From Longimicrobium sp. (lineage in GTDB: Bacteria; Gemmatimonadota; Gemmatimonadetes; Longimicrobiales; Longimicrobiaceae), in contig DASUYB010000162.1 of NCBI GenBank assembly GCA_036377595.1, forward strand, positions 1 through 39,230: a stretch of 39,230 nt of DNA, written 5' to 3'. The translations under genes and the position numbers were made by a program. The first letter of the stretch is position 1, and each line of letters begins with the position of its first letter. Shown piece by piece: positions 19,195 to 36,938 of this stretch. A model generated the notes under the pieces. That model was given only the letters and a program-made list of their open reading frames with translations. It had not been told where the DNA came from and searched no databases.

Positions 19195-19349
19195 CCCCCG
19201 TCCCCGGTGAGCCCGCGCGTGCCTTGCGCCGAAGATGCCGCGCATCCCGAGGACCGGCAACCGTCCGCGCGTTAACCCGCTGCGCCGCGCGGGCGTCTCC
19301 AACGAGAGACGCGCCCGCCGGCGGGATGCGGCGGGTTCGCAGATTGCGG

Positions 19350-20879
19350 ATGGTGATCGACATGGCCCGACCCGACCGACCCCGGCCCCTGCGGCTGTCG
19401 CCGCGCCAGCGCCTGGCCGCCGTGCTGACCCCGGCGCTGCTGGTGCTGGCCTTCGACGCGGCCAGCTTCTGGGGCTCGCAGCGCGAGCGCGCCAGCCGCC
19501 TGGACGTGGACCGGAGCCACCGCACCATCGAGACGCTGCAGCGCGTGCTGATCTCCTCCTCCGAGGCCGAGGCCGCCGAGCAGCGCTTCCTGGCCACGGG
19601 CGATCCCCGCACGCTGGCCCCGTTCGCCCGCGCCGAGGCCGACCTCCCCGCCCACCTGGACCGCCTGCGCGCGCTGAAGGAGGGCGACGCTCAGTCTTCG
19701 ATCGCGCTGGCCGACACGCTGGAGCGGCTGATCGGGAGGGAGATGGCGGAGATGCGCGCGAGCATCACCGTGGCGCGGGGCGGCGACCGCGCGGCGGCCG
19801 TCCGGCGCTCGGAATCGGGCGGCGCCGTGGCCGCCGCGGGCGAGGTGGAGCGGGTGGCGGCCGCGCTGCAGCGCGACGAGGAAGCGGAGCTGCGGGAGCG
19901 CAACCTGCACGAGGAAGGCGTCACCGAGCGTCTGATCGCGCTCGTCGTGCTCGGCGCGCTGGCGACGGCGGCGGTGTCGCTGGCGGTCAACTGGCTGCTG
20001 GGGCGCTACGGCGCCAGCCAGGAGGCGTTCGCGGGAGAGATGGCCAGCCTGAACCGGCAGCTGGCCGAGCAGTCCGCCTCGCTGCAGCAGCTGACCGCCG
20101 AGCTGCAGGAGCGCACCGACGCGGCCGAAGAGGCAAACCGCGCCAAGTCGCGCTTCCTGGCGGGGATGTCGCACGACCTGCGCACGCCGTTGAACGCCAT
20201 CTCCGGCTACGTGGAGCTGCTGGAGATGGGCGTGCGCGGCCCCGTGTCCGAGGCGCAGAAGGCCGACCTGCAGCGCATCCGCGACAGCAGCCGCCACCTG
20301 CTGTCGCTGATCGAGTCGATCCTCTCCTTCGCCCGCACCGAGTCGGGGAAGCTGGAGGTGCGGCCGGAGCCCGTTCCCGCGGCGGCGCTGGTGCGGCAGG
20401 CCGAGTCGTCGTTCCTCCCCCAGGCCGCGCAGAAGCAGCTGCGCTACTCGTCCGACGGGGCGGATGGGGTGTGGGTGATGGCGGACCCGGAGAAGACCGA
20501 GCGCGTGCTGCTGAACCTGATCGGCAACGCCATCAAGTTCACCCCCGCGGGCGGCGAGGTGGCGGTGCGGTGCGTGGACGAGGGCGAGCGCGTGGCCATC
20601 CACGTGCGCGACACCGGCCGCGGCATCCCGCCGGAGCAGGTGCCGCTCATCTTCCAGCCCTTCGTGCAGGTGGACCGCGAGCAGGTCCCCCAGCACCAGC
20701 GCGGGGTCGGGCTCGGCCTGGCCATCAGCCGCGAGCTGGCCGTCGCGATGGGCGGCGAGCTGACGGTGGAGAGCGAGCCCGGCCGCGGGTCGACCTTCAC
20801 CCTCCATCTCCCCCGCGCGCCCGATCCGCGCCCCCGCGCCGACGCCGCCACGCACGCGGGAGAGTCGAAGCCCGTGTGA
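19350..20879 (+). CDS. CHASE3-type sensor histidine kinase 1
   Basis: A 509-residue membrane sensor kinase. The N-terminal helix LAAVLTPALLVLAFDAASFW is followed by a CHASE3-like extracellular domain (SHRTIETLQRVLISSSEAEAAEQRFLATGDP), then a second helix (LIALVVLGALATAAVSLAV) and a short coiled coil. HisKA has MSHDLRTPLN with the phospho-acceptor H275. The ATPase domain has NLIGNAIKF (N box), DTGRGI (G1) and GVGLGLAIS (G2). No receiver domain is fused and no response regulator is adjacent, so it is an orphan. Starts at ATG 19350 or 19362 are both possible. A close paralogue follows 220 bp downstream. Confidence 0.9.
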   Translation: MVIDMARPDRPRPLRLSPRQRLAAVLTPALLVLAFDAASFWGSQRERASRLDVDRSHRTIETLQRVLISSSEAEAAEQRFLATGDPRTLAPFARAEADLPAHLDRLRALKEGDAQSSIALADTLERLIGREMAEMRASITVARGGDRAAAVRRSESGGAVAAAGEVERVAAALQRDEEAELRERNLHEEGVTERLIALVVLGALATAAVSLAVNWLLGRYGASQEAFAGEMASLNRQLAEQSASLQQLTAELQERTDAAEEANRAKSRFLAGMSHDLRTPLNAISGYVELLEMGVRGPVSEAQKADLQRIRDSSRHLLSLIESILSFARTESGKLEVRPEPVPAAALVRQAESSFLPQAAQKQLRYSSDGADGVWVMADPEKTERVLLNLIGNAIKFTPAGGEVAVRCVDEGERVAIHVRDTGRGIPPEQVPLIFQPFVQVDREQVPQHQRGVGLGLAISRELAVAMGGELTVESEPGRGSTFTLHLPRAPDPRPRADAATHAGESKPV

Positions 20880-20901
20880 TCCACCGGTCCCCCTAAAGGA
20901 T

Positions 20902-20968
20902 TCTCATGCGGAGGCGCGGAGACGCGGAGTGAATCGTTTCCTCCGCGTCTCCGCGTCTCCGCGTGAGA
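20902..20968. repeat. Long-stem GCGGAGAC hairpin, copy 3
   Basis: 28-bp arms (20902-20929 and 20941-20968) match at 26 positions with an 11-nt loop; the two differences are G-U compatible in RNA. It lies between the two tandem sensor kinase genes. Confidence 0.88.
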
Positions 20969-21099
20969 TCATTGGGATCAGGAGATGCGAAGAGTGGTGA
21001 ACATGTGACGGACCTTGAACCTGTGGCGGGATGGATGCAGGTTAAGAAACGACACCATCTTCCAGATCCCCCTGCCCCGCCCCGAAGGAGGTGCGGTCC

Positions 21100-22722
21100 A
21101 TGCCTCCGAGCCCGCAGCCTCTCCGCCTGACGACCCCGCAGCGCATCGCCGCGGTGCTGGCGCCCGCGGTGCTGGTGCTGGCCTTCGGCGCGGCCGGGTG
21201 GTGGGGCACCGTGCGCGAGAGCCGCTCGCGCGCCGACGTCACCCAGAGCCACGAGACCATCGAGGCGCTGCAGCAGCTCCTCACCACCCTGGTCGACGCG
21301 GAGACGGGGCAGCGCGGCTTCCTGTTGACCGGCGACGCGCGCTACCTGGAGCCGTTCCGCGCCGCCGAGGCCGACGTGCAGCGGCGCATCCAGGACGTCG
21401 GCCGGCTGACCGGAGACGCCCCCCAGGCGACGCGGGAGCGCGTCGCCTCGCTGTCGCTCCTCGTCGGCCGCAAGTTCGGCGAGCTGAACGAGACCATCGA
21501 CTCGGCGCGCGCCGGCCGGCGCGAGGCCGCGCTGGCGATCGTCGCTTCCGGCCGCGGCAAGGCCACGATGGACGAGATCCGCCGCGTCACCGGCGCGCTC
21601 GCCGACGGCGAGCGCACGGAGATGGCGGTGAGGGCTGCGACGGAATCGCGCAGGTCGCGGCTGCTGACCGCGCTGATCGTGCTCGGCGCCGCCGCGTCGG
21701 CGGTGGTGACGCTGCTGCTGAACCGGATGCTGAACCGCTACGGCACCAGCCAGGCCGCCTTCGCCGGGGAGCTGGAGCGGGCGAACGCGCAGCTCGAGGC
21801 GCAGCAGGCGGAGCTCGAGCAGCAGAACGAGCACCTGCAGGAGCAGTCGGCCGAGCTCGAGGCGCAGTCCGCGCAGCTGCAGGAGCAGCAGGCCGAGCTG
21901 GAGATGCAGCACGCCGCGCTGCAGGAGCTGACGGAGGAGCTGCAGGCGCGCACCACGGCGGCCGAGGCGGCCAACCTGGCCAAGGCGCGCTTCCTGGCCG
22001 CCATGTCGCACGACCTGCGCACGCCGCTGAACGCCATCTCCGGCTACGCCGACCTGCTGGAGATGGGGATCCGCGGCCCCGTGACCCAGGCGCAGGCCGA
22101 CGACCTGCAGCGCATCCGCAACAGCTCGCGCCACCTGCTGTCGCTGATCACGGGGATCCTGGACTTCGCGCGCGTCGAGGCCGGGCGCGTGGAGGTGCGG
22201 CTGGAGAACGTGCCGCTGGCGGCCACCGTGCGCGGCGTGGAATCCTCCATCCTCCCCCAGGCGGCGGAGAAGGGGGTGAAGTTCGAGACCGACGCCGGCC
22301 CCGAGGGCGTATGGGTGTCGGCCGACCCCGAGCGGGTGGAGCAGGTGCTGCTGAACCTCGTGGGCAACGCGGTGAAGTTCACCGACCCCGGCGGCGAGGT
22401 GGCGCTCAACTGCGTGGAAGACGGCGAGGAGATGGTGGCCATCCACGTGCGCGACACCGGCCCGGGGATCGCCGAAGACCAGCTCGCCACCATCTTCGAG
22501 CCGTTCGTGCAGGTGGACCGCCAGGCGGTACCCGAGCGCCAGCGCGGCGTGGGCCTGGGCCTGGCCATCAGCCGCGAGCTGGCCGGCGCGATGGGCGGGT
22601 CGCTGGAGGTGCAGAGCGAGCCGGGGAAGGGCTCCATCTTCACCCTCCGCCTGCGCCGCGTCCCCAACCCGCACGCCCACCCCGAGGCCGCCGCCGGCGC
22701 CGGCGAGGCCGAGATGGTCTGA
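21100..22722 (+). CDS. CHASE3-type sensor histidine kinase 2 (paralogue, extended coiled coil)
   Basis: A 540-residue paralogue of the previous kinase with the same architecture: transmembrane helix (RIAAVLAPAVLVLAFGAAGWW), CHASE3-like domain (HETIEALQQLLTTLVDAETGQRGFLLTGD), second helix, coiled coil, HisKA (MSHDLRTPLN, H304) and HATPase (NLVGNAVKF, DTGPGI, GVGLGLAIS). The linker before HisKA is a long Gln/Glu-rich coiled coil, exactly 35 residues longer than in the paralogue (five heptads). The ATG at 21100 is preceded by GAAGGAGG. No response regulator is adjacent. The lanthipeptide-like array starts 170 bp downstream on the same strand. Confidence 0.92.
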   Translation: MPPSPQPLRLTTPQRIAAVLAPAVLVLAFGAAGWWGTVRESRSRADVTQSHETIEALQQLLTTLVDAETGQRGFLLTGDARYLEPFRAAEADVQRRIQDVGRLTGDAPQATRERVASLSLLVGRKFGELNETIDSARAGRREAALAIVASGRGKATMDEIRRVTGALADGERTEMAVRAATESRRSRLLTALIVLGAAASAVVTLLLNRMLNRYGTSQAAFAGELERANAQLEAQQAELEQQNEHLQEQSAELEAQSAQLQEQQAELEMQHAALQELTEELQARTTAAEAANLAKARFLAAMSHDLRTPLNAISGYADLLEMGIRGPVTQAQADDLQRIRNSSRHLLSLITGILDFARVEAGRVEVRLENVPLAATVRGVESSILPQAAEKGVKFETDAGPEGVWVSADPERVEQVLLNLVGNAVKFTDPGGEVALNCVEDGEEMVAIHVRDTGPGIAEDQLATIFEPFVQVDRQAVPERQRGVGLGLAISRELAGAMGGSLEVQSEPGKGSIFTLRLRRVPNPHAHPEAAAGAGEAEMV

Positions 22723-22790: not shown

Positions 22791-22824
22791 TTGACGCGCA
22801 GCACATTCTGTGTTTTGTGTTAAT
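22791..22824 (+). promoter_or_regulatory. Possible promoter of the precursor array
   Basis: An AT-rich island in otherwise GC-rich DNA with TTGACG at 22791-22796 and TGTTAAT near 22818-22824, about 70 bp before the first precursor gene. The spacing (about 21 nt) is longer than the sigma-70 optimum, so this is tentative. Confidence 0.3.
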
Positions 22825-22892: not shown

Positions 22893-23087
22893 ATGGACAA
22901 GCTGCGGCTGGAGATGGAGCGGCTGAGGGTGGAGACGTTCGCGCCGGACGCGAAGACTGGCGGCAAGGGCACGGTGCTGGGCTACGACGACAGCACCTGC
23001 AGCGCCCAGCCCACCTGCGGCATCGCCTCGCGCGGCGAGGAGACGTACGAGCTGGAGGGCCCTTCCCGCTATGTCTGCTGCGTGTGA
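22893..23087 (+). CDS. Pinensin-like lanthipeptide precursor A1
   Basis: A 64-residue peptide with an amphipathic leader (MDKLRLEMERLRVETFAPDA), a GKGTV junction motif (25-29) and a Ser/Thr/Cys-bearing C-terminal core. Cysteines are C36, C42, C62 and C63, with Ser/Thr at 34, 35, 37, 41, 46, 51 and 58 as possible dehydration sites. The leader pattern KLxLxxxxLxVE[ST]F followed by GTV resembles precursors of the pinensin class of lanthipeptides. The ATG at 22893 follows GGAGGAGG. Assignment to a modified peptide rests on pattern and on its three neighbours. No LanB, LanC or protease gene is in the window. Confidence 0.8.
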   Translation: MDKLRLEMERLRVETFAPDAKTGGKGTVLGYDDSTCSAQPTCGIASRGEETYELEGPSRYVCCV

Positions 23088-23159
23088 CGGAACGGGGGCG
23101 ATCTCCCGCTACGGGCGAGATCGTTCCGACGCGCTGGAACCCACTCATGGAGGGACATC

Positions 23160-23354
23160 ATGGAGAAGCTGCGGCTGGACGTGGACCGGCTGAAGGTGGA
23201 GAGCTTCGCGCCGGACGCGAAGACCGGGCGCAAGGGAACGGTGCGGGCGCACGACGACAGCGACTGCAGCGTGGCGTACACCTGCGGCATCTCGTGGCGC
23301 AGCGAGGAGTCGTACGAGCTGGAGCCTCCCACGCGCTACGGCTGCTGCATCTGA
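23160..23354 (+). CDS. Pinensin-like lanthipeptide precursor A2
   Basis: A 64-residue paralogue of A1. Its leader (MEKLRLDVDRLKVESFAPDA) is nearly the same and the four cysteines sit at identical positions (36, 42, 62, 63). The core differs most: SDCSVAYTCGISWRSEESY instead of the SRGEETY form, and it ends in GCCI. It starts 72 nt after A1, with ATGGAGGGA just upstream acting as the ribosome binding site. A product with a different ring-flanking sequence is likely if it is modified. Confidence 0.8.
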   Translation: MEKLRLDVDRLKVESFAPDAKTGRKGTVRAHDDSDCSVAYTCGISWRSEESYELEPPTRYGCCI

Positions 23355-23447
23355 AACGCCGGGGCGGCGTCCCCACCGGCACGCCCGTTCATGTCCACGC
23401 CGGATGCGTCCGGCGTGGGCGAAACTCTCTCGACCCATGGAGAAATC

Positions 23448-23642
23448 ATGAACAAGCTGCGGCTGGACCTGAACGGGCTGAAGGTGGAAAGCTTCGCGCC
23501 GGACGCGATGAAGCGTGGAAAGGGCACGGTTCTGGGCTACGACGGCAGCACCTGCAGCCAGGGGTTCACCTGCGGCGTGGCCTCGCGCGGCGAGGAGACG
23601 TACGAGTTCGAGGTGAACACCCGCTACGCCTGCTGCGTCTGA
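23448..23642 (+). CDS. Pinensin-like lanthipeptide precursor A3
   Basis: A 64-residue paralogue with leader MNKLRLDLNGLKVESFAPDA and cysteines at 36, 42, 62 and 63. The core contains STCSQGFTCGVASRGEETY and ends RYACCV. It begins 93 nt after A2 and is preceded by CATGGAGAAAT, a variant of the CATGGAGGGA motif found before A2 and A4. That points to tandem duplication of a unit that includes the translation start region. Confidence 0.8.
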   Translation: MNKLRLDLNGLKVESFAPDAMKRGKGTVLGYDGSTCSQGFTCGVASRGEETYEFEVNTRYACCV

Positions 23643-23709
23643 GCCACCCGGCGTCCCCGCCCGGGTTCCGAGCCCCGGCGGGGGCCGAACCTTTCTCATG
23701 GAGGGATGG

Positions 23710-23901
23710 ATGAACAAGCTGCGGATGAACGTGGACGGTCTGAAGGTGGAGACCTTCGAGGCGGGCGACACGGCGCGGGCGATGGGCACGGTGCGCGCGA
23801 ACGACGGCGGCTGCAGCATTCAGCCCACCTGCGGCAACCCCTCGCGCGGCGAGGAGACGTACGCGCAGGAGGTCGTCACCCGCTACGCCTGCTGCGTCTG
23901 A
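23710..23901 (+). CDS. Pinensin-like lanthipeptide precursor A4
   Basis: A 63-residue paralogue with a more divergent leader (MNKLRMNVDGLKVETFEAGD) and one residue fewer before the first core cysteine (C35, C41, C61, C62). The core has GCSIQPTCGNPSRGEETY and ends RYACCV. I use the second ATG (23710), because the first (23698) adds MEGW, which none of the paralogues has; ATGGAGGGA then serves as ribosome binding site. It is the last of the array and a strong hairpin follows. Confidence 0.78.
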   Translation: MNKLRMNVDGLKVETFEAGDTARAMGTVRANDGGCSIQPTCGNPSRGEETYAQEVVTRYACCV

Positions 23902-36686: not shown

Positions 36687-36938
36687 TCACACCAGGATCG
36701 GACCGGTGTCGGGGCAGAACTGGTCGCACCTGCTCAGGGCGCAGGTGATGCCGCAGGTGCCCTCGCACGAGGCGCCGCAGGTGAACTGCCCGGCGCAGGT
36801 GTCGCAGGTGCGGCCGAAGAAGGAGCACCCGAAGGTGAACTCCCGCCCCTCCACCGTTCCGCGTCGCTCCACCTTCTCCGGCTGCGCCTGGAAGCTTTCG
36901 ACGTGAAGGTCGTCCAGGTCGAGCTTGAGCTTGCCCAT
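36687..36938 (-). CDS. Cys-rich pinensin-like lanthipeptide precursor B
   Basis: An 83-residue peptide with the leader MGKLKLDLDDLHVESFQAQP, almost the same pattern as array peptides A1-A4, followed by ERRGTV (25-29). The core then departs completely: nine cysteines at 38, 45, 48, 54, 58, 62, 66, 71 and 75, six of them directly preceded by Thr or Ser (for example T44C45, T47C48, T53C54). Such [TS]C periodicity suits multiple lanthionine or methyllanthionine rings, but many cysteines could also suit disulfides or metal binding. The ATG has GGAGG 7 nt upstream. It is divergent from an MFS exporter 270 bp away. Confidence 0.78.
   Translation of the reverse strand: MGKLKLDLDDLHVESFQAQPEKVERRGTVEGREFTFGCSFFGRTCDTCAGQFTCGASCEGTCGITCALSRCDQFCPDTGPILV

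Follow-up and report, generated by a model that had tools for sequence, protein, structure and literature searches.

A tandem array of candidate class I lanthipeptide precursors in Longimicrobium, probably served by enzymes shared with many dispersed loci

What do four small, closely similar genes lying in tandem in a Longimicrobium genome encode, and where are the enzymes that would act on their products? The window (i.e. the whole stretch of 39,230 nucleotides that was analysed) had been read in a first-pass annotation as carrying four pinensin-like precursor peptides without maturation genes of their own. From the sequence comparisons set out here, we consider it likely that the four genes, A1–A4, encode class I lanthipeptide precursors that would be matured in trans by enzymes encoded elsewhere, at C103, and shared with other dispersed loci. 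The features of the window that bear on this question are the following (coordinates of the precursor genes A1–A4 include the stop codon).

22791..22824, + strand: candidate promoter TTGACG ... TTGTGTTA, read by eye and common to the upstream region of the array in the congener G003
22893..23087, + strand: precursor gene A1, 64 aa, with a match to the leader-family profile
23160..23354, + strand: precursor gene A2, 64 aa
23448..23642, + strand: precursor gene A3, 64 aa
23710..23901, + strand: precursor gene A4, 63 aa
23950..23986, + strand: long GC-rich hairpin 3' of A4, candidate transcription terminator (-37.2 kcal/mol, z -5.1)
36690..36938, - strand: fifth leader-bearing precursor, 83 aa, with a Cys-rich core, adjoining an MFS transporter gene

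Coordinates and lengths of the four tandem open reading frames were confirmed, and alignment bore out the common plan ascribed to them: a leader (KLRxxxxxLxVE[ST]F), then GTV, then four cysteines at fixed positions (36, 42, 62 and 63 in A1), with A4 one residue shorter ahead of the first. Ser/Thr residues at positions 37, 41, 51 and 58 (A1 numbering) are likewise retained in all four peptides. The residues around the cysteines had been described as variable, whereas the cores proved not very variable, the pattern CS...TCG..S..EE[TS]Y..E..[TS]RY.CC being broadly common to A1–A4. NCBIfam and Pfam profiles assigned no name to any of the four.

The array itself stood as described, but its scope as a set of four genes left out both the fifth member in the window and a genome-wide repertoire. 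At least 176 genes for Cys/Thr-rich peptides with the same leader (in its genome-wide form KLxLxxxxLxVESF...GTV) were found at 88 loci on 54 contigs of the 7.2-Mb genome; the figure, counted in the genome stretches examined by a strict leader regular expression, is a lower bound because ten further checked sites of the leader DNA pattern fall outside it. A profile built from the five peptides of the window gave at least 150 matches in the genome contigs. While 55 of the 88 loci are single genes, the remainder are grouped, with up to 10 genes per group. GTV is exact in 157 of the 176 genes, and the cores hold a median of 6 Cys and 8 Ser/Thr, Cys making up 14.5% of core residues vs 0.1% of leader residues. 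The array is one of at least 88 loci that probably use common enzymes. Elsewhere in the repertoire, contig C20 (L034), 11.7 kb in all, carries 20 precursor genes, some of them in runs of 8 to 10, interspersed with housekeeping genes. In two species, the genes at C136:33898-34041 and L128 7088-7494 (G001) have the core pattern WSDxSxCPTTxPSDRRPC in common, GTV being present only in the G001 copy.

The genes are short, and long spurious frames overlap the array on both strands, as might be expected if chance or mis-called frames in a high-GC genome lay behind the family. We regard this as scarcely credible: the leader DNA pattern gave 158 matches in the genome vs 1 for the reversed control, 169 of the 176 genes begin with ATG, a Shine-Dalgarno-like sequence precedes 162 of them, and sequence and synteny are conserved in a second species (G003). 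The CATGGAG-type motif that had been singled out upstream of A2–A4 is part of this ordinary Shine-Dalgarno context and is exact in only 6 of 176 upstream regions.

In G003, three array copies occupy the equivalent place, between an orthologous kinase (74% identity) and a Bmp lipoprotein (93%), and one of them has lost GTV while retaining the core pattern CS..PTCG..SRGEETY..E..TRYACC. A hairpin equivalent to that after A4 also lies 3' of the G003 array (z -5.6). The candidate promoter stretch fell below the threshold of a consensus-promoter scan, which reported none there. Just 5' of the array lie two tandem genes for CHASE3 histidine kinases (window 19224-22722), and on its downstream side a Bmp/ABC-type importer is encoded; the kinase genes are paired in G003 too and are possible regulators. 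A domain scan of the 20 larger window ORFs found no RiPP-enzyme domain in any of them, in agreement with the earlier statement that the window contains no LanB or LanC, and a RiPP peptidase was likewise not found in the vicinity of the array.

A search of the genome for LanB and LanC, fixed beforehand as a check, found both, so that a lanthionine synthetase is not absent, and the proposal of a duplicated class I lanthipeptide-type set relying on enzymes elsewhere is supported. At C103 (L029), LanB1 (PF04738), LanB2 (PF14028) and LanC (PF05147) are encoded consecutively, as a split class I dehydratase and a cyclase; same-leader precursors, encoded on the strand of lanC, start 92 bp 3' of it, and ∼5.5 kb beyond them lies an ABC transporter gene. 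Both zinc motifs of this LanC (WCHGGPG and SLCHGRGG) are intact, and the protein matches LicM2 and NisC; LanB2 matches NisB weakly, and the best solved relative of LanB1 is 6ec7, a LanB-domain protein. Three hallmarks of class I precursors are in place, namely a LanB-type (glutamyl-tRNA) dehydratase, a zinc-ligand LanC and a clustered precursor with the same leader. The core of an operon-side precursor (C103:100399-100560), EATPGHSCLRTACCPDTFQPGCTG, is identical in both species (G003 C23, L111 6036-6209), unlike most cores.

The C103 LanC carries a C-terminal extension of ∼225 aa (L029 10860-11600), which is also found in the LanCs of the eight precursor-rich genomes, G184 and G186, and is absent from the two nearest other LanCs checked. 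Among 10 members, the extension matched the RRE-type models PqqD (6/10), NGO1945_C (4/10) and HvfC-RRE (3/10), repeatedly but always below threshold; we propose as a hypothesis that the RRE-like tail might help to read the leader.

C103 is not the only such locus. C98 encodes a second split LanB (PF04738 and PF14028) with a CCG-type LanC and its own precursor of Cys-Ser/Thr repeats, and if the leader were a generic tag, the array might be matured there, or by both loci. PF14028 and LanC are present at C98, two GTV-type precursors lie ∼10 kb from its LanB, and ProcM, a promiscuous class II enzyme, has the same CCG set of zinc ligands. Yet the precursor of C98 itself has a differing core, and the LanC tree places the C98-type LanC together with the G007 one, outside the single clade formed by the eight precursor-rich genomes (support 96/99, 98% of bootstrap trees), which makes maturation by C98 unlikely in our view. 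Leader genes are almost absent from G007, where the same pairing of CCG-type LanC, split LanB and Cys-Ser/Thr-repeat precursor recurs. The LanB2 tree did not resolve the precursor-rich group as a single clade. The long repeat cores of C98 (L030 9825-10094) and G007 (L112 14003-14242), e.g. CSNCSDCSNC, are a separate and striking core type. On C145, a LanC-domain protein is encoded that lacks the zinc motifs and seems to be fused to a kinase; on C1, a piece of LanB is encoded close to NRPS-like genes (kinase and NRPS named by eye from sequence). Because the C98 enzymes and the NRPS-linked LanB piece are also in the genome, we infer, rather than observe, that the array is assigned to C103.

Comparison across genomes ties the leader to split LanB. 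The dehydratase elimination domain (PF14028) occurs in 9/9 leader-bearing genomes vs 8/289 others among 298 genomes of the phylum (p 5e-13, relatedness ignored), and, among 31 relatives, in 8/8 genomes with leader genes vs 1/23 without (p 1e-6, relatedness ignored). Seven relatives gave 131, 120, 46, 34, 27, 10 and 8 matches to the leader DNA pattern; other genomes gave 0 to 5, and the listed sites that were looked at resemble unrelated hydrophobic stretches. Outside the family, where a genome has one or two copies of the leader, these mostly adjoin lanB-lanC: the gene order is lanB1-lanB2-lanC-precursor in G184; in G186 the precursor lies between LanB and LanC, and the next genes encode a subtilase-like protein and an ABC transporter (several genes named by eye in both cases). 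Same-leader precursors lie near their own LanB/LanC in G003, G014, G015, G184 and G186, as at C103.

Could the peptides nevertheless be something other than lanthipeptides, either leader-bearing Cys-rich peptides that form disulfides or bind metal, or a decaying gene family? No enzyme lies near the array, several cysteines are adjacent (CC) or immediately follow Thr, and dN/dS is near 1 in many core comparisons. Values of dN/dS among the copies are uninformative, and synonymous distances are low, so that copies without function could stay alike through recent duplication or gene conversion. Against such readings, which we hold to be very improbable, leader presence tracks split LanB throughout the phylum, frames, ribosome-binding sites and synteny are all intact, and Ser/Thr are placed before Cys above every control class of residues. 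When the cysteines were kept in place and the first 5 residues of each core were trimmed off, a separate upstream Ser/Thr was available for every Cys in 135 of 176 cores vs a null of 90.5 ± 5.5, the control classes (glycine/alanine, acidic/amide and others) being at or near their nulls. Relative to Cys, Ser/Thr make up 42% of residues at -1 and 38.5% at -5 vs 18.7% overall, a placement that fits N-to-C thioether rings. A first test on fully shuffled cores (152 vs 55) was dropped for overstating directionality; with Cys fixed but without trimming the null climbs to 128/176, and for this reason the stricter trimmed test is quoted. The directional bias of Cys is partly positional.

The array peptides themselves largely conform to what a class I core requires, Ser/Thr able to pair with Cys. 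In A1–A3, every Cys can be assigned its own N-terminal Ser/Thr in a full N-to-C assignment; in A4, no core Ser/Thr lies N-terminal of the first Cys, so its cysteines cannot all form canonical rings.

Taken together, these results argue for maturation of the array by the C103 enzymes, along the following lines. The shared N-terminal leader, ∼28 residues up to the GTV junction, would be recognised by the trans-acting enzymes; LanB1 would glutamylate, and LanB2 eliminate, to turn core Ser/Thr into dehydro-residues, which the LanC cyclase would join to Cys, mostly at Ser/Thr preceding the Cys in the chain. Removal of the leader would next fall to an unclustered protease, and release of the product to an exporter. 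The modification of A1–A4, the choice of C103 rather than C98, the ring topology and the leader cut site are all predictions of this scheme. As to the protease, C39 peptidase-transporters are encoded on C17, C13 and C68, where no adjoining leader genes were found, and the GTV junction is not a double-glycine site. A scan of 10 genes near five large precursor clusters for alternative maturases returned only housekeeping and transport families. The products may perhaps act outside the cell, for example in competition or signalling. The literature covered on Longimicrobium, Gemmatimonadota and lanthipeptides holds genome-mining mentions and leaves the repertoire undescribed; most subscription papers lay outside its scope, and a prior description is possible. 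Cluster-based mining would miss most of the precursors because biosynthetic enzymes are distant from nearly all of them.

How does the system relate to known ones? By its leader, split LanB and LanC, we place it in class I, near the pinensins of Chitinophaga, which are antifungal lanthipeptides of that class (family I 17 of PMC7268733); their LanB is likewise split into separate proteins (PMC7268733) and their leader motif is of the same LxL type. It differs from them in its Cys-rich cores, its GTV junction and its precursors, which are mostly unclustered with the enzymes. Against the pinensin leader model NF038180, with its curated cut-off of 24 bits, A2, A3 and the fifth peptide scored 13.9, 13.6 and 17.5 bits and A1 and A4 gave no reported match, so that all window peptides are under the cut-off and, in the strict sense, the pinensin-like label of the first-pass annotation is unsupported for A1–A4; 9 other loci in the genome exceed it, and 15 of 60 leaders match at E <= 0.01. 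The top match in the genome, at 40.7 bits (C37:38711-38791, - strand), was missed by the strict leader regular expression.

With canonical class I clusters of the nisin type the system shares predicted Ser/Thr dehydration by LanB and cyclisation by LanC; it departs from them in its split LanB, mostly dispersed precursors, ∼225-aa LanC extension and lack of an FxLD leader.

In its organisation it resembles the prochlorosins and SyncA peptides made by ProcM and SyncM, with a conserved leader, highly diverse cores, many genes distant from the enzyme and one or few enzymes acting in trans. Many prochlorosin-type precursors lie far from their cognate LanM (PMC7268733), and SyncM is reported to modify up to 79 substrates (PMC9872173). 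The combinatorial systems compared are class II, picocyanobacterial and have tens of substrates per strain; here, 176 dispersed genes at 88 loci stand against 2 split LanB/LanC loci, in keeping with a prochlorosin-like mode if the enzymes act as predicted. The differences lie in the chemistry and the scale: a class II LanM with a Nif11-type leader is not what accompanies this leader, which is of the short KLxL type and linked to class I split LanB and LanC, the phylum is another, and at least 176 genes lie in one genome, the promiscuity of their enzymes being presumed. We lean, though only somewhat, towards the wider view that this is the largest lanthipeptide repertoire of a single genome and a class I system of one enzyme set with hundreds of substrates. 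On this view, the RRE-like LanC tail would enable one operon of split LanB and LanC to act on precursors spread across the genome, and the system would have expanded from an operon with one precursor, a form that related families still retain. If so, a class I system with well over 100 natural substrates would mean that the mode evolved separately, with a different dehydration chemistry, and would offer a naturally occurring library of substrates for a promiscuous split LanB/LanC. The number of copies in the sister genomes ranges from none through few to many, which makes the drivers of such an expansion directly testable.
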